From: Opitutales bacterium
GTDB taxonomy: Bacteria; Verrucomicrobiota; Verrucomicrobiia; Opitutales; Oceanipulchritudinaceae
Reading direction: 5' to 3'
DNA length: 44,936 bases
NCBI GenBank assembly: GCA_020831525.1
Contig: JAFIGH010000036.1
Location: 1 to 44,936, forward strand
The translations under genes were made by a program, and so were the position numbers. Positions 3,867-19,231 of the stretch are shown piece by piece. Position 1 is the stretch's first letter. Each line of letters begins with the position of its first letter. The notes beneath the pieces were generated by a model, which ran no database searches, was not told the origin of the DNA, and saw nothing but the letters and a program-made list of their open reading frames with translations.

Positions 3867-5138
3867 GTGATCCGGACCCGCCGCATGCACGCGCCGCGGC
3901 AGCTGGACAGCACCCGCCTGCTCGACACAACGCGCCGGATCATTGACCGCACCCGGTCGGGCCGGACGGACTGGGTGGGGCCGGTGTGTATGCTTTTGCT
4001 GGCGGTGACGGGCGTGTTTTTTATCTACTCCTCGCAGGCGTATGCGGCGAGTTCATTTTGGTCGCGCCAGCTGGTTTGGATGGTCCTCGGGGGGGCGGTG
4101 TATGTTGTCCTCTCCCGCATTGACTACAAGATCTACCTCGAAAATGCCTTCTGGTGCTACCTTGGCGCGCTCGTGCTCTTGATGGCGGTGCTGGCGTTTG
4201 GCGACGTGCGGGAAGGGGCGCGGCGCTGGCTGAACTTTGGATTCTTCAGCTTCCAGCCCTCGGAGGCGGCGAAAATCGGCACGTTGATCATGATCGCGAG
4301 CATTCTCGCACGCTCCGAACTGCGCAACTTGCGGGAGTCGGTATGGGTGTTGCTTAAGGTAATGGGTATCACGGCCTTGCCAATATTCTTGATTTTGCTC
4401 CAACCGGACCTAGGGTCTTCCCTAATCATCCCTCCTATGGTCCTTGCCCTATTATACGTTTCCAAGCTCTCCGAGCGCTTTTTTTACGCGTTTTTCGGGG
4501 TGGTGGTGCTGCTTGGGACGGTGCTCACGGTCGATCTCTACCGATACGCGGCCTTTCTGGAGGCGAACCAGCTTACGGCGCTGGAGGCGCGCAACCTCTA
4601 CCAAAAGGAGTCGTGGGTCCCCGGACTGCGCGACTACCAGCGCGAGCGTATCATGACCTTCATTGCGCCGGAGGTGGTGGATCCGCGCGGGACGGGTTCG
4701 GCGTGGAACGCCATCCAGGCGCAGCAGGCGGTGGGCACGGGCGGATTCTGGGGCAAAGGCTGGGGGGAGGGTTTGCAGGCGCGGCTGGGCTACCTGCCCC
4801 GGTCGGTCGCCCACAATGATTTCATCTTCGCCGTCGTGGCGGAGGAAAAAGGTTTTCTCGGCGGAATGCTCGTGATCGGGCTATACGCGGTTCTACTCGG
4901 CAACGGGGTTCGGATTGCCGGAATCGCGCGCGACCGTTTTGGTGTGCTTCTGTGTATAGGCGTGACGATGGTCTTCCTCGTCCACGTCTTCATCAATATC
5001 GGCATGACCATCGGGATCGCACCCATCACGGGTTTGCCTCTGCCGTTTGTCAGTTACGGAGGCTCCTTCATTTTGAGCTGCTGTATTCTTCAGGGCATTG
5101 TCCAAAGCGTTCACCGACACCGGAGGGAGTTTCAATGA
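3867..5138 (+). CDS. rodA: RodA, SEDS-family peptidoglycan glycosyltransferase
   Basis: A 423-residue polytopic inner-membrane protein that polymerises glycan strands from lipid II during cell elongation, with a class B PBP and MreBCD. Visible SEDS signatures are GARRWLNFGFFSFQPSEAAK, QPDLGSS, the WNAIQAQQAVGTGG stretch, and GLPLPFVSYGGS near the C-terminus; about ten hydrophobic segments are present. The GTG start at 3867 is preferred because a GAGG lies 8 bases upstream; an in-frame ATG is at 3885. Residues 1-33 are a basic cytoplasmic tail. The stop is immediately followed by the RNase G reading frame, the usual rodA-rng order, though mreBCD and the PBP gene are not in this window. Confidence 0.92.
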   Translation: MIRTRRMHAPRQLDSTRLLDTTRRIIDRTRSGRTDWVGPVCMLLLAVTGVFFIYSSQAYAASSFWSRQLVWMVLGGAVYVVLSRIDYKIYLENAFWCYLGALVLLMAVLAFGDVREGARRWLNFGFFSFQPSEAAKIGTLIMIASILARSELRNLRESVWVLLKVMGITALPIFLILLQPDLGSSLIIPPMVLALLYVSKLSERFFYAFFGVVVLLGTVLTVDLYRYAAFLEANQLTALEARNLYQKESWVPGLRDYQRERIMTFIAPEVVDPRGTGSAWNAIQAQQAVGTGGFWGKGWGEGLQARLGYLPRSVAHNDFIFAVVAEEKGFLGGMLVIGLYAVLLGNGVRIAGIARDRFGVLLCIGVTMVFLVHVFINIGMTIGIAPITGLPLPFVSYGGSFILSCCILQGIVQSVHRHRREFQ

Positions 5139-11792: not shown

Positions 11793-12263
11793 ATGTCACG
11801 CCGCCGCAGAGCCGAAAAACGCGAGTACACCGCCGACCCCCGCTACAACAGCACGCTGGTCAGCCAGCTGATCAACGTGATCATGCTGGATGGCAAGAAG
11901 TCGGTCGCACAGAAGATAGTCTACAGCGCCTTTGAGCGCGTCAGCGAAAAGCTGGAGAAGGGCGACCCCGTCGACCTCATGCTCGGAGCGCTTGAGAACA
12001 TCCGCCCCAAGCTCGAAGTGAAGAGCCGCCGCGTCGGCGGAGCGACCTATCAGGTGCCGCTTGAGATCTCCTTCGAGCGCCAGCAGAGCCTCGCTTTCCG
12101 CTGGCTCGTGACAGCGGCGCGTTCCCGCCGGGGTTCGATGCGCGAATGCCTCGCCTCGGAAATCATCGACGCCTACAACAATACCGGCTCGGTGGTGAAA
12201 AAGAAGGACGACACGCACCGGATGGCCCAGGCAAACCGCGCTTTCGCCCACCTCCGCTGGTAG
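11793..12263 (+). CDS. rpsG: 30S ribosomal protein S7
   Basis: A 156-residue primary 16S-binding protein that organises the 30S head. [12 protein letters not shown] at the start, [36 protein letters not shown] and AFAHLRW at the end are diagnostic. The length is standard. It lies between rpsL and fusA in the usual str order. In E. coli S7 represses this operon; no such site was identified here. Confidence 0.97.
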
Positions 12264-12311
12264 TCCGCTCCGGCGGCTCCGGCACTTTGTTCTTTCCCAG
12301 ATTTTCCTCCT

Positions 12312-14480
12312 ATGGCTACTGTAGACACGAAAAAGCTTTCGGCTGCGAATTCGGCGCAGCGCAAATGCCCGCTGGAATTCCAGCGCAATATCGGTATTGC
12401 CGCCCACATCGACGCGGGCAAAACGACCACGACGGAGCGCATCCTCTTTTACTCGGGCCGCATCCACAAGATCGGTGAGGTCCACGACGGCGCGGCCACG
12501 ACGGACTGGATGGAGCAGGAGCGCGAGCGCGGGATCACCATCACCTCGGCGGCGGTTGCGGCCGAGTGGATCACGAAAGACGGTCCTTTTGAGGGCATCC
12601 CGCACCGCATCAACATCATCGACACCCCCGGCCACGTCGACTTCACCGCCGAGGTGGAGCGTTCGCTCAAGGTTCTCGACGGCGCGGTGGCGGTTTTCTG
12701 CGCTGTCGCTGGCGTGCAGCCCCAGTCCGAGACGGTCTGGCGGCAAATGGATAAGTACAAGGTCCCCCGCATCGCCTTCATCAACAAGATGGACCGCACG
12801 GGCGCGGACTTCCTCAATGCCGTCAACGACATCCGCGAAAAGCTCGGCGGCAACGCCCATCCCCTTTACCTGCCCATCGGCGCGGAGGAAAATCTGCGCG
12901 GTCTCATCGACCTCGTTGCGATGAAGGCCATGATATACGATGCCGATGACGCCACGGGGGCCACCATCGCAGTCTCCGATGTTCCCGCCGAATACGCTGA
13001 GCAAGCGAACGAGTACCGTGAGAAGCTCATCGAGGAGGTCTCGGCCCACGACGACGTCCTCATGGAGAAGTATCTCGAGGGCGGGGAAATCACCGAGGAC
13101 GAACTGCGCACCGGCATCCGCAAGGCCACGCTCTCGCTCGACTTCGTCGGTGTCATTCCCGGATCCGCCTTCAAGAACAAGGGTATCCAGCGTGTGCTCA
13201 ACGCCGTCGTCGACTACCTGCCGAGCCCGATCGACATTCCGCCGCAGAAGGGCCACTCCCTCGACGACGAGGAGACAATCGTGGAAGTCGCGCCGGACGA
13301 CAGCAAGAAGGTCGCCGGTCTCGTCTTCAAACTCTGGTCCGATCCGTTTGTCGGTAAGCTTGTTTTCTTCCGTATCTACCAAGGCACCCTCGAGAAGGGG
13401 TCGACCCTCGTCAACCCGCGCACGGGCAAGACCGAGCGGGTGAGCCGCCTCATGCTCATGCACGCCGACAGCCGCGAGGATATCGACCGTGCGTTTTCCG
13501 GCGATATCGTGGCCCTCATCGGCGCGAAAGACGTGCGGACGGGCGACACCCTCGCGGAAAAAGGGGAGGACATCATCCTCGAGCCGCCGACATTTCCCGA
13601 GCCGGTCATCAGCATGTCCGTCGAGCCGAACTCGAAGGGCGACCAGGAGAAACTTTCCCTCGGCCTCCAGCGCCTCGCCGAGGAGGACCCGACCTTCGTC
13701 GTTTCGACCGATGAAGAGACCGGCCAGACGATCATCGCCGGAATGGGTGAGCTTCACCTTGAGATCATCCGCGACCGCCTCTTCCGCGAGTTCAAGGTCG
13801 AGGCCACGGCGGGCAAGCCGCAGATCGCCTACCGCGAAACGATCACCCTGGCGGCAGGCGGTGTGGGCAAGTTTGTCCGTCAGTCCGGCGGCCGCGGTCA
13901 ATACGGCCACGCCGAGATCAAGATGGAGCCCCTCGAAGCGGGCAAGGGCTACGAGTTTGAGAACGAGATCGTCGGCGGTGTCATTCCCAAGGAGTACATC
14001 AAGCCGACCGAGGAAGGCATCAAAGAAGCCGCGCGCAACGGCACCGTCGCGGGTTACCCGGTGGTCGATTTCAAGGTGCGCCTCGTCTTCGGTTCTTTCC
14101 ACGAGGTCGACTCCTCCGAAATGGCGTTCAAGATGGCGGGTATTTTCGCCTTCCGCGACGCTATGGCGAAGGCCAAGCCGCAGCTCCTCGAGCCCGTCAT
14201 GAAGGTCGAGGTGGAGACGCCCGATGAATACCAGGGCGACATCGTGGGCGACATCAACCGCCGCCGCGGCGTCATCCAGGGCATCAATACGCGCGGCCAC
14301 CTTGTGCGCATCCTCGCCAACGTGCCGCTGGAGCAAATGTTCGGCTATTCCACGGATGTCCGCTCCCTCTCGAAGGGACGCGCTTCCTACAGCATGGAGC
14401 CGTCGCACTTTGAACCGGTCCCGCCGAGTCTCGTCGAGGGCATCGTCAAAACCCAATCCCGCGCCCCGGCACGGACCTGA
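12312..14480 (+). CDS. fusA: Elongation factor G
   Basis: A 722-residue translational GTPase that drives translocation. The G motifs are AHIDAGKTT at residues 31-39 (G1), DTPGHVDF (G3) and NKMDRTG (G4); the switch I threonine is in RGITITSAA. Domains II-V follow, including [17 protein letters not shown] of domain IV and [20 protein letters not shown] of domain V. It is slightly longer than E. coli EF-G (about 704), with a short N-terminal tail. rpsJ follows after 51 bases; tuf, often present here, is absent. Confidence 0.97.
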
Positions 14481-14531
14481 GGTCCGCCGTCCGCCGCATC
14501 CCGCACCACAAACCATTATTCCATCCAGACC

Positions 14532-14840
14532 ATGAGCGGACCACGCATTCGCATCAAACTCCAAGGTTACGACTATCGTATCATCGACCAGAGCGCGACG
14601 GAGATCGTCGACACGGCCAAGCGCTCGGGCGCCCGCGTCGCCGGGCCGGTGCCTCTTCCGACGCGCATCGAAAAGGTGTCCGTCAACCGTTCGCCGCACG
14701 TCGACAAAAAGTCCATGGACCAGTTCGAGCAGCGCACGCACAAGCGCCTTATCGACATCGTTGAACCGACCGCGCAGACGGTGGACGAGCTGAAGAAGCT
14801 CAACCTTCCCGCCGGCGTCGACATTACCATCAACGTCTGA
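14532..14840 (+). CDS. rpsJ: 30S ribosomal protein S10
   Basis: A 102-residue small-subunit protein, also the NusE subunit of rRNA antitermination complexes. Diagnostic stretches are [23 protein letters not shown] and [19 protein letters not shown]. The length is standard. It is the last gene of the str group here: a hairpin with a T tract lies 20 bases after its stop, and a new promoter follows, so it is separated from rplC, its usual operon partner. Confidence 0.97.
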
Positions 14841-14860
14841 CCTCCGGGCCGCTTTCCGCG

Positions 14861-14897
14861 GGTGGTGGAAATTCTTCCGCCTACCCCGTTTTTTTCT
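14861..14897 (+). terminator. Intrinsic terminator between rpsJ and rplC
   Basis: GGTGGTGGAA (14861-14870) pairs with TTCCGCCTACC (14875-14885) with one bulge and one G-T pair, and a run of seven T begins at 14889. It ends the rpsL-rpsG-fusA-rpsJ transcript and separates the str group from the rplC operon. Confidence 0.6.
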
Positions 14898-14907
14898 TTG
14901 GAATAGC

Positions 14908-14936
14908 TTGACAGGGGTCGGGCGCGGGCGTTGCTT
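14908..14936 (+). promoter_or_regulatory. Candidate promoter of the rplC operon
   Basis: TTGACA at 14908-14913 is a perfect -35 hexamer. A 17-base spacer leads to TTGCTT at 14931-14936, a weak -10. It sits directly after the terminator and about 175 bases before rplC, implying a long structured leader. Confidence 0.5.
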
Positions 14937-15024
14937 CAACCGCTTTGACTCAAAACCCGTAGGGGGTTTGTCCGGAAAGCCGCCAGCACCGCTGCGGACC
15001 TCCGCTTTCAAGCCTCCTCTCACC

Positions 15025-15052
15025 GGTTTTATCGCAAAACCCTTTATTTTTC
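15025..15052 (+). promoter_or_regulatory. AU-rich leader hairpin upstream of rplC
   Basis: GGTTTT (15025-15030) pairs with AAAACC (15036-15041), followed by TTTATTTTTCT. The stem is weak, but the T-rich tail resembles a terminator. With the strong hairpin at 15073-15088 it could form an attenuator of the ribosomal operon. Confidence 0.3.
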
Positions 15053-15072
15053 TCACCCTAATGCAGGGCCTG

Positions 15073-16401: not shown

Positions 16402-16688
16402 TCGAACCGGAACGCATCATCATCCGCCAACTGGTCACGGAAAAGGCCACCGCCGCCACCTCCGAGGCCAACCAATACTATTTCCGCGTCGCCCCCGGTG
16501 CCAACCGTATCGCCGTCAAGCAGGCGATCGAGAAGCAGTTCGGGGTCAACGTCCGCTCCGTGAACATCGCCAACGTCAAGCCGAAGGTCAAAAGCAACCG
16601 CATGCGCGGCGGCAATCCCGGTCGCAAGCCGGGCTACAAAAAGGCGATTATCACTGTCGCCGCGGGCGAATCCATCGACCTCGTCTGA
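16398..16688 (+). CDS. rplW: 50S ribosomal protein L23
   Basis: A 96-residue protein at the tunnel exit, docking site for trigger factor and SRP. The pattern LVTEKATAATSEANQYYFRV, NRIAVKQAIEKQFGVNVRSV and RKPGYKKAIITV is characteristic. Translation is coupled to rplD by an ATGA overlap. Confidence 0.95.
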   Translation: MIEPERIIIRQLVTEKATAATSEANQYYFRVAPGANRIAVKQAIEKQFGVNVRSVNIANVKPKVKSNRMRGGNPGRKPGYKKAIITVAAGESIDLV

Positions 16689-16711
16689 ACCGCGTAAAGG
16701 ACATACACGCC

Positions 16712-17554
16712 ATGCCCATTGTTCCCAAGAAACCCGTCACGCCCTCCCAGCGCTTCCAGGTGCAGAACAGCCAGCCGCAGCTCAGCAAAGAGCGGCCGGT
16801 CAAGAAGCTCACCGAGATCAAGAAGCGCACCGGCGGTCGCAACGCCTACGGCCGTATCACGAGCCGCCGTCGCGGCGGGGGCCACAAGCGCCTCCTGCGT
16901 ATCGTCGATTTCCGGCGCGACCGCCTCGACGCTCCCGCCGAGGTCGTGCGCTTCGAATACGACCCGAACCGGTCGGCCAATCTCGCGCTTGTGCGCTATG
17001 AGGACGGCGAACTGCGCTACATCCTCGCCCCGCAGAAGCTCGAAGAGGGCGCGAAGGTTGTGAACGCCTCGGAGACAGCCGCGTTTTCGGCGGGCAACAG
17101 CATGCCGTTGAAGAGCATTCCGCCCTCGACTTCGATCCACGCGATCGAAATGCGGCCCAACACGAAGGGCGCTCTTGTGCGCACCGCCGGTAACTCCGCC
17201 ACCCTTGTGGCCGTGGAAAAGGGTCTCGCCTCCGTGCGCATGCCCTCCGGCGAAATCCGCCAGTTCAACGAGAACTGCCGCGCCACCATCGGTGTCGTCG
17301 CCAACTCCACCCACAACAACCGCTCGCTCGGCAAGGCCGGGCGCAAGCGCTGGCTCGGCAAGCGCCCGCGTGTGCGCGGTGTGGCCATGAATCCGGTCGA
17401 CCATCCCATGGGCGGCGGCGAAGGCCGTTCCTCCGGCGGCGGTCACCCGGTGAGCCCATGGGGCCAGCTCGCCAAGGGCTTCCCCACCCGCCGCAAGGGC
17501 AAGCAGTCCGAGAAGTACATCCTTGTGCGCCGCAACGGCCGCCGCGTGAAGTAA
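16712..17554 (+). CDS. rplB: 50S ribosomal protein L2
   Basis: A 280-residue 23S-binding protein needed for subunit joining and peptidyl transfer. [38 protein letters not shown], the [16 protein letters not shown] signature holding the conserved His, and [20 protein letters not shown] are present. The ATG at 16712 begins the conserved protein, with AAAGGA upstream. Confidence 0.96.
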
Positions 17555-17573
17555 TCCAAATTCGACAAACGAC

Positions 17574-17843
17574 ATGGCACGTTCACTGAAAAAAGGCTTC
17601 TTTGTGGATCCCGGGCTTTGGAAGCGGATTGAGACCGCCCAGGCCAAGGACGACCGCAAGCCCATCCGCACATGGTCGCGGCGCTCCCAGATCACGCCCG
17701 AGTTCGTCGGCCTCAATATCGAGGTCCACAACGGCAAGGGCTTTGTTCCTGTCCACGTGACGGAGAACATGGTGGGGCACCGTCTCGGCGAGTTCTCGCC
17801 GACGCGCCAGTTCAAGGGGCACCAGCCGCACACCAAAAAGTAA
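17574..17843 (+). CDS. rpsS: 30S ribosomal protein S19
   Basis: An 89-residue protein of the 30S head. [39 protein letters not shown] and [19 protein letters not shown] are diagnostic. In nearly all bacteria rplV follows directly; here an exported protein gene intervenes. Confidence 0.96.
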
Positions 17844-17866
17844 TCCCTTTCCGCACACGGTCGACA

Positions 17867-18217
17867 ATGTTCCGCATCCTCCAGCTCCTCCTCGTCTGCG
17901 CCTTCGCGGGTTCTCTTGCCCGCGCCGAAGCGCCGGCGTTTGGCCACGCCCCGCTGCACGCGGCGGGCGAGGGCAGGGTCATGGAAGTGGCGGAGACCGA
18001 GGCGGCCGACCTCATCGTCCTCGCCGGCGGGATCGACAGCGGCTTCCGCGAAGGCATGCTTGCGCAGGTTGTCCGCGGTGACGTCTACGTGGCCACCGTA
18101 CTTCTCGCCGCCGTGGCGGGGGAGCGGGCCGTAGCGCTCATCACTGATCTCGCGCCGGGGCAGGTTATCGCCGCCGGCGACCGTGTCCGTATCCAAACTT
18201 TCCAACTCAATTCCTGA
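17867..18217 (+). CDS. Exported small protein inside the ribosomal operon
   Basis: A 116-residue protein of unknown function lying between rpsS (23 bases upstream) and rplV (10 bases downstream), on the same strand. Residues 1-21 are a signal peptide (MFRILQLLLVCAFAGSLARA, cleavage after AEA or nearby). The rest is a small beta-type domain, LIVLAGGIDSGFREGMLAQV, ATVLLAAVAGERAVALITD and IAAGDRVRIQ, which resembles the C-terminal domain of FlgT-like and related envelope proteins (a GIxxGxxxGM turn and a terminal GDxV). No RNA-binding or ribosomal features are present. Tight spacing and intact reading suggest real co-expression with ribosomal proteins. Its job is unknown. Confidence 0.75.
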   Translation: MFRILQLLLVCAFAGSLARAEAPAFGHAPLHAAGEGRVMEVAETEAADLIVLAGGIDSGFREGMLAQVVRGDVYVATVLLAAVAGERAVALITDLAPGQVIAAGDRVRIQTFQLNS

Positions 18218-18227
18218 ATTTCATCCC

Positions 18228-18584
18228 ATGGAAGTGACATCCCTTTCCCGTTTCACCCGTATCTCGCCGATGAAGGCGCGCGAGGTCGCCCGCTCCATCC
18301 AAGGGCGTCCGGCCAACGAAGCGCTCGAGCTTCTCGCCTTCATCCCGCGCAAGTCGGCGCGTCTGCTGCGCAAGACGCTCCAGAGCGCCATTGCCAACGC
18401 GGAGAACAACCATGACCTCTCGTCCGACGACCTCATTATCAAGAGCGCCGTTGTCGAGCAGGGTCCGGCCTTCCGCCGTTTCAAACCCGTCGCGCGCGGC
18501 TCGGCGCATCCTTACCGCAAACGCACGAGCCACCTGCGCATCATCCTCGCCGAGGCCGAGGATTCCAAAACCGCCAACACCTGA
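18228..18584 (+). CDS. rplV: 50S ribosomal protein L22
   Basis: A 118-residue tunnel-wall protein. RFTRISPMKAREVARSIQGR, AFIPRKSARLLRKTLQSAIA and the hairpin loop ending RGSAHPYRKRTSHLRIIL are typical. The ATG at 18228 begins the family sequence; in-frame sequence before it belongs to the end of the upstream gene region. Confidence 0.95.
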   Translation: MEVTSLSRFTRISPMKAREVARSIQGRPANEALELLAFIPRKSARLLRKTLQSAIANAENNHDLSSDDLIIKSAVVEQGPAFRRFKPVARGSAHPYRKRTSHLRIILAEAEDSKTANT

Positions 18585-18592
18585 GTTTTCCC

Positions 18593-19231
18593 ATGGGCCA
18601 GAAAGTCAATCCTATCGGTTTCCGTCTCGCCGTCCGCCGCGACTGGCAATCCCGCTGGTTCGCCCGCAAGAAGGACTTCGGCACACTCGTCGCCGAAGAT
18701 CAGCGCATCCGCGAGTTTCTCGGCGAAAAGTTCCGCTTTGCCGCCGTGCCGCGCATCTTCATTGAGCGCGCCGGCAACCGCGTGCGCGTCAAAGTCTTCA
18801 CCGCCCGTCCCGGCATCGTCATCGGGCGCAAGGGGCAGGAGCTGGAGAAAATCAAGGCCGATCTCTCCAAGATGGTGGGCCGCGACATCCTTCTCGATAT
18901 CCAGGAGGTAAAGAAGCCCGACCTCGTCGCGCAGCTTGTCGCCGAGAGTGTCGCCCTACAGCTGGAACGCCGCATTTCCTTCCGCCGTGCCATGAAGAAG
19001 ACCGTGCAAAGCACCATGAGCATGGGCGCACTGGGTATTCGACTGCAGGTTTCCGGTCGCCTCGGCGGCTCCGACATCGCCCGCACCGAGACGACGCGCG
19101 CCGGATCGGTGCCCCTGCACACACTCCGCGCGAATGTTGACTACGGCTTTTCCGAGGCGCGCACAGTCTACGGTCTCATCGGTGTCAAATGCTGGATTTG
19201 CGTGGCCGACGACGAATCATCCATTGGCTGA
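18593..19231 (+). CDS. rpsC: 30S ribosomal protein S3
   Basis: A 212-residue protein of the mRNA entry site. MGQKVNPIGFRLAVRRDWQS at the N-terminus, the KH motif PGIVIGRKGQELEKIK and the C-terminal GRLGGSDIARTE and LRANVDYGFSEARTVYGLIG are clear. It is shorter than E. coli S3 (233) because the C-terminal tail is reduced. It starts 8 bases after rplV. Confidence 0.95.
   Translation: MGQKVNPIGFRLAVRRDWQSRWFARKKDFGTLVAEDQRIREFLGEKFRFAAVPRIFIERAGNRVRVKVFTARPGIVIGRKGQELEKIKADLSKMVGRDILLDIQEVKKPDLVAQLVAESVALQLERRISFRRAMKKTVQSTMSMGALGIRLQVSGRLGGSDIARTETTRAGSVPLHTLRANVDYGFSEARTVYGLIGVKCWICVADDESSIG

Follow-up and report, generated by a model that had tools for sequence, protein, structure and literature searches.

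An exported protein of Verrucomicrobiota encoded in the S10 operon immediately upstream of rplV

The window, i.e., the whole stretch of 44,936 nucleotides analyzed here, carries on its + strand a part of the S10 operon in which the open reading frames follow the order L2-S19-X-L22-S3. The upstream neighbor within the operon is rplB (L2, 16712 to 17554), and rpsS (S19, 17574 to 17843), whose 89-residue product served as the query for the S19 scan described below, directly precedes X; rplV (L22, 18228 to 18584) directly follows it, and rpsC (S3, 18593 to 19231) comes after L22, all on the + strand. Gene X (17867 to 18217, + strand, ATG to TGA) encodes a protein of 116 residues (MFRILQLLLVCAFAGSLARAEAPAFGHAPLHAAGEGRVMEVAETEAADLIVLAGGIDSGFREGMLAQVVRGDVYVATVLLAAVAGERAVALITDLAPGQVIAAGDRVRIQTFQLNS) and is separated from the rpsS stop at 17843 by 23 nt (17844 to 17866) and from the rplV ATG at 18228 by 10 nt (18218 to 18227). 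The gene order of the S10 operon serves as a yardstick of conservation, and in both E. coli and Chlamydia S19 and L22 are direct neighbors. The initial annotation had placed an intact 116-residue gene at this junction, and this was confirmed by the ORF and by its relatives: two genomes of the same genus retain X in the identical place, with 91% and 84% identity. Within its own genome, X was the sole match to itself. Its strand, which is that of its neighbors, its short spacing, and its conserved order are those of a non-ribosomal resident of a ribosomal operon. Two long antisense frames are also present in the window, at 16634 to 18205 (- strand, 523 aa) and 11796 to 15056 (- strand, 1086 aa), both probably mere shadows cast by coding sequence of high G+C.

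The nucleotide differences between X and its closer relative numbered 28, 6, and 5 at codon positions 3, 1, and 2, respectively. The dN/dS of X was 0.114 and 0.152 for the window versus the two same-genus relatives and 0.178 for the relatives versus each other, while that of S19 in the same pairs was 0.00 to 0.015. These ratios indicate that X is under purifying selection, yet evolves faster than S19. A spurious or chance ORF was ruled out by the conservation of X in relatives, the third-position differences, and the dN/dS. The codon adaptation of X, calculated with the ribosomal genes of the window as the only reference, was 0.556, the lowest among the 15 operon genes compared, with S19 near it at 0.583.

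We then determined the distribution of X in the Opitutae. Scanning named genome records with S19 gave 80 Opitutae loci, and wherever both genes were present the S19-L22 gap was bimodal, measuring either -4 to 61 nt or 360 to 606 nt. Each long gap encoded an X homologue with a signal-like N terminus (33 of 33 junctions with an insert, the window counted). The long gap was found in three Cerasicoccus species and the short one in Pelagicoccus. A profile built from the Opitutae homologues (A1) matched 268 of the 384 genomes of the class, and the order S19-X-L22-S3 on one strand was found in all 49 class-level loci read (L085 to L134 minus L133, a 100-base stretch). Thus, rather than being absent from its relatives with signs of decay, X was homologous at every Opitutae junction with an insert and was met further through the phylum. 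Outside the order to which the window belongs the protein is longer, about 237 to 298 aa as read, and the 115 distinct insert proteins collected, which include one nonmember (L222, where a 552-nt gap holds an ORF unlike X), range from 108 to 321 aa.

In this set of 115 the median spacing was 19 nt between S19 and X and 11 nt between X and L22, the latter being no more than 60 nt in 106 cases. A consensus scan of the + strand found no promoter- or terminator-like site in the S19-L22 interval, the 23-nt spacer between S19 and X included. Since the spacing is short and no such site lies between S19 and L22, we infer that X is co-transcribed with the ribosomal genes. The N terminus of the window's X (residues 1 to 20, 17867 to 17926, + strand), MFRILQLLLVCAFAGSLARA/E, resembles by eye a Sec signal peptide, with the likely cleavage at ARA/E. 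A hydrophobic core was detected within the first 60 residues of 97 of the 115 insert proteins, versus 5 of 115 when counted from residue 61 and 31% of shuffled sequences, and most of the 18 inserts under the hydrophobicity threshold show a signal-like start by eye. The signal peptide and the non-ribosomal nature claimed at the outset therefore both stood: X matched none of the ribosomal families of Pfam or NCBIfam, and its start is a hydrophobic export signal.

The search was extended to 289 genomes of the phylum with a second profile (A2), and the contexts of its matches were read, since some of them were likely MreC; the resulting tally of 186 out of 289 is accordingly not a count of X, some weak or second matches being probably MreC. 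Among 20 further loci read (18 from families listed merely as belonging to the same phylum and 2 from the class), 18 had the order S19-X-L22, and the remaining two (L173 and L180) had X-L22 without S19 upstream. In L173, upstream of position 4393, the reading frame of X seems to break in the N-terminal part, so that the signal and the remainder of the protein are in different frames, a frameshift that may be real or due to assembly, and in L170 X apparently begins at a nonstandard codon. Of 30 genomes, mostly without a clear X, that were searched with S19, two (L205 and L211) turned out to have X at the S19/L22 junction. In many loci of families f77, f82, f83, f87, f93, f95, and f101 the S10 block stops at S19 and L22 is located elsewhere. 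The break falls exactly at the junction occupied by X in L209, L210, L212, L215 to L220, and L226 to L234, in several families outside the class of the window; there S19 is the last gene of the S10 operon and L22-S3 is located at another site. Some of these split-operon families may, at a guess, be Lentisphaeria.

When 18 genomes with a split operon were searched with S3, X was found immediately upstream of L22 in 15 of them; none was found upstream of L22 in L235 and L236 (both family f83) or L242, where it has been lost, moved, or become too divergent. Since 15 of the 18 split-operon genomes keep X directly upstream of L22, a break in the operon leaves X with L22 and not with S19. The distribution as a whole indicates that X is not peculiar to this genome and was an ancestral feature of the S10 operon of Verrucomicrobiota. 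From the size and clustering of the families, relatives of Akkermansia probably also carry it.

To follow gain and loss, the concatenated L2, S19, L22, S3, and L16 proteins of 106 rows were placed on a tree by a quick method, with the more distant loci as the outgroup. The presence of X required 7 changes of state with L028 and L080 set aside because their contigs end after S19, and 8 with them. Every outgroup row carries X at the same site, and the simplest reading is thus an ancestral X with several losses in Opitutales, after which S19 and L22 were rejoined; the outgroup rows had been picked for having X, so the change count holds for Opitutales only. Several lineages have dropped X and kept the ribosomal genes, which can thus do without it. 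Such recurrent losses, with the junction cleanly reclosed, are also what would be expected if X were a mere passenger that chance had kept in the operon and whose function had nothing to do with ribosomes or growth rate, and the order of genes in an operon may persist without functional need. We nevertheless regard such a passenger as unlikely, because the linkage to rplV lasts across classes and operon splits in a gene under purifying selection, and because no copy of X apart from rplV was seen among the profile matches read, which covered a part of the secondary matches, several of these being probably MreC.

The predicted structure of X was determined next. The AlphaFold2 model of the window's protein had a mean pLDDT of 83.7, with the barrel blocks at about 86 to 96, and consisted of a short N-terminal helix followed by strands at residues 35 to 43, 48 to 53, 65 to 70, 73 to 83, 87 to 95, and 106 to 109. 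This C-terminal six-stranded beta barrel (residues 35 to 109, 17969 to 18193, + strand), supported by the model, the fold searches, and alignments A1 to A3, is the conserved domain of the family. In the model of a long form (L137; mean pLDDT, 87.0; pTM, 0.49), helices at residues 4 to 27, 30 to 78, and 86 to 123, which we read as a coiled coil, precede the same barrel. The profiles of the short and long forms aligned with an hhalign probability of 98.9% over 77 columns, indicating that the two forms are homologous. According to these models, the distant members consist of a C-terminal barrel preceded by an export signal and a coiled coil, and the order of the window has kept the predicted signal and barrel and lost the coiled coil.

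A Foldseek search with the short model placed FlgT first (3w1e; E value, 6.7e-3; TMq, 0.54), and with the long model FlgT or the flagellar LP/HT ring came first (8z5n, 1.5e-5; 3w1e, 1.7e-4), F1-ATPase barrels and MreC being close behind. In VIA-align, 8z5n was also ranked first for the short model (Z, 10.6), with the ring chain and F1/V1 barrels scoring alike (Z of about 10). Because F1-ATPase barrels score equally, the fold is not specific for FlgT; the six-stranded barrel is common to proteins of many functions and names no role. The N-terminal barrel (crown) of the F1/V1-ATPase alpha/beta subunits resembles X in fold (VIA-align Z of about 10, with an rmsd of 1.9 over 68 residues) but shares only 7 to 21% identity with it, and X is exported and lacks an ATPase domain.

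The initial annotation had also assigned X a FlgT C-terminal-like domain, and the first rank of FlgT in Foldseek bears this out at the level of fold, but at the level of sequence the window's X had no Pfam match to it and its relatives remained under the cut-off. Three long relatives matched FlgT_C (PF16538) with at best 23.8 bits versus a gathering score of 27, and 2 of 34 long members did so at an E value of ≤0.001. Like the C-terminal domain of FlgT (3w1e, 8z5n), X is an exported protein with a small C-terminal beta barrel; FlgT, however, has further N-terminal and middle domains and a flagellar context, whereas X has a single barrel and a ribosomal context in every locus read. X as FlgT was ruled out by the sub-cut-off or absent Pfam match, the single barrel, and the lack of flagellar context. 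Neither Pfam (at an E value of ≤1, except for one irrelevant match) nor NCBIfam had a match to the window's X, no model of either collection claims the family at its cut-off, and a sequence search of the PDB with A1 gave a chance match only.

MreC (7eft, 2j5u) was a Foldseek match and has a membrane signal, a coiled coil, and a barrel, a layout that the long forms may share; the long form has the long helices followed by the barrel, and no such helices are present in the X of the window. MreC (PF04085) aligned with the long-form profile with an hhalign probability of 92% over 49 columns, versus 3.6% with the short-form profile; X differs from MreC in having about half the barrel region. No Pfam MreC model matched X, and the best NCBIfam MreC score was 25.4 bits versus a cut-off of 343. 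The genome has a separate MreC on another contig (G000:C149; E value, 1.4e-30), which rules out X as its MreC. A Pfam MreC match was found in 22 of the 24 class genomes searched; the two without one, G018 and G035, belong to family f12, measure 2.4 and 3.2 Mb, and have relatives that carry X.

In all the loci read, split operons included, rplV directly follows X, at a median spacing of 11 nt, and the export signal is conserved; this would also fit a cis-acting secretion monitor whose translation and export tune translation of rplV, as SecM does for secA. Conservation in X, however, is concentrated in a folded barrel of about 75 residues, and the final four residues of the long forms belong to the least conserved positions. 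No shared arrest-like motif was seen in alignments A1 and A2, and the lengths vary from 108 to 321 aa; we therefore consider a secretion monitor highly improbable.

A familiar precedent for the placement of an envelope or export gene among ribosomal protein genes is secY, which lies in the spc operon of bacteria generally. SecY, however, is a universal membrane protein, whereas X is exported, lineage specific, and encoded in the S10 part of the cluster. With secY so placed, and with X being exported and having in its distant forms long helices before the barrel, X could be a protein export accessory, e.g., one that partners the Sec translocon from the periplasm. Against such a role, which we likewise find unlikely, X matches no known translocon accessory in sequence or fold, is absent from many genomes that must export proteins too, and shows no trade-off with Skp. 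Skp (PF03938) was found in 50 of 50 genomes with or without X, and X as a replacement of Skp was ruled out.

We found no paper on X or its operon arrangement in the open-access literature. An abundant lipoprotein of Methylacidiphilum (PMC10260701) is a different protein encoded in a different place. The statement in PMC7203096 citing Lagkouvardos 2014 describes a small RNA-binding protein of the PVC superphylum that is thought to replace L30. As described there, that protein resembles X in being lineage specific, linked to ribosomal proteins, and from the same superphylum, but it is RNA binding with an L30-like fold, whereas X is an exported protein with a barrel fold.

The explanation that we favor, and to which as a whole we give about even chances, is that the X family is ancestral to Verrucomicrobiota and provides an exported periplasmic scaffold or adaptor whose dose is linked to ribosomes. 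Residing in the S10 operon just upstream of rplV, X would share a transcript with the ribosomal genes and be coupled to them in translation, and its amount would thereby track ribosome synthesis. Once in the periplasm or the inner membrane, it would form oligomers that serve as a scaffold or adaptor on the inner membrane side, much like the MreC or FlgT barrels, the coiled coil joining X subunits and the barrel contacting partners, with Opitutales keeping the barrel only; its purpose would be envelope assembly or protein export. More tentatively, and with rather less confidence than in that explanation, we propose that Verrucomicrobiota ancestrally wired a dedicated periplasmic scaffold into the S10 operon, such that ribosome synthesis would directly set the dose of a structural envelope component, as a link between growth rate and envelope assembly, which was kept through the operon splits by the linkage to rplV.

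Much of one phylum holds, inside the S10 operon, an exported protein without a family name, one that current annotation pipelines leave nameless. The recurrence of the arrangement across most of Verrucomicrobiota suggests that production of an envelope protein has for a long time kept pace with that of ribosomes in this phylum. X is thus a specific candidate, ready for knock-out, for the means by which ribosome production and envelope growth may be connected.
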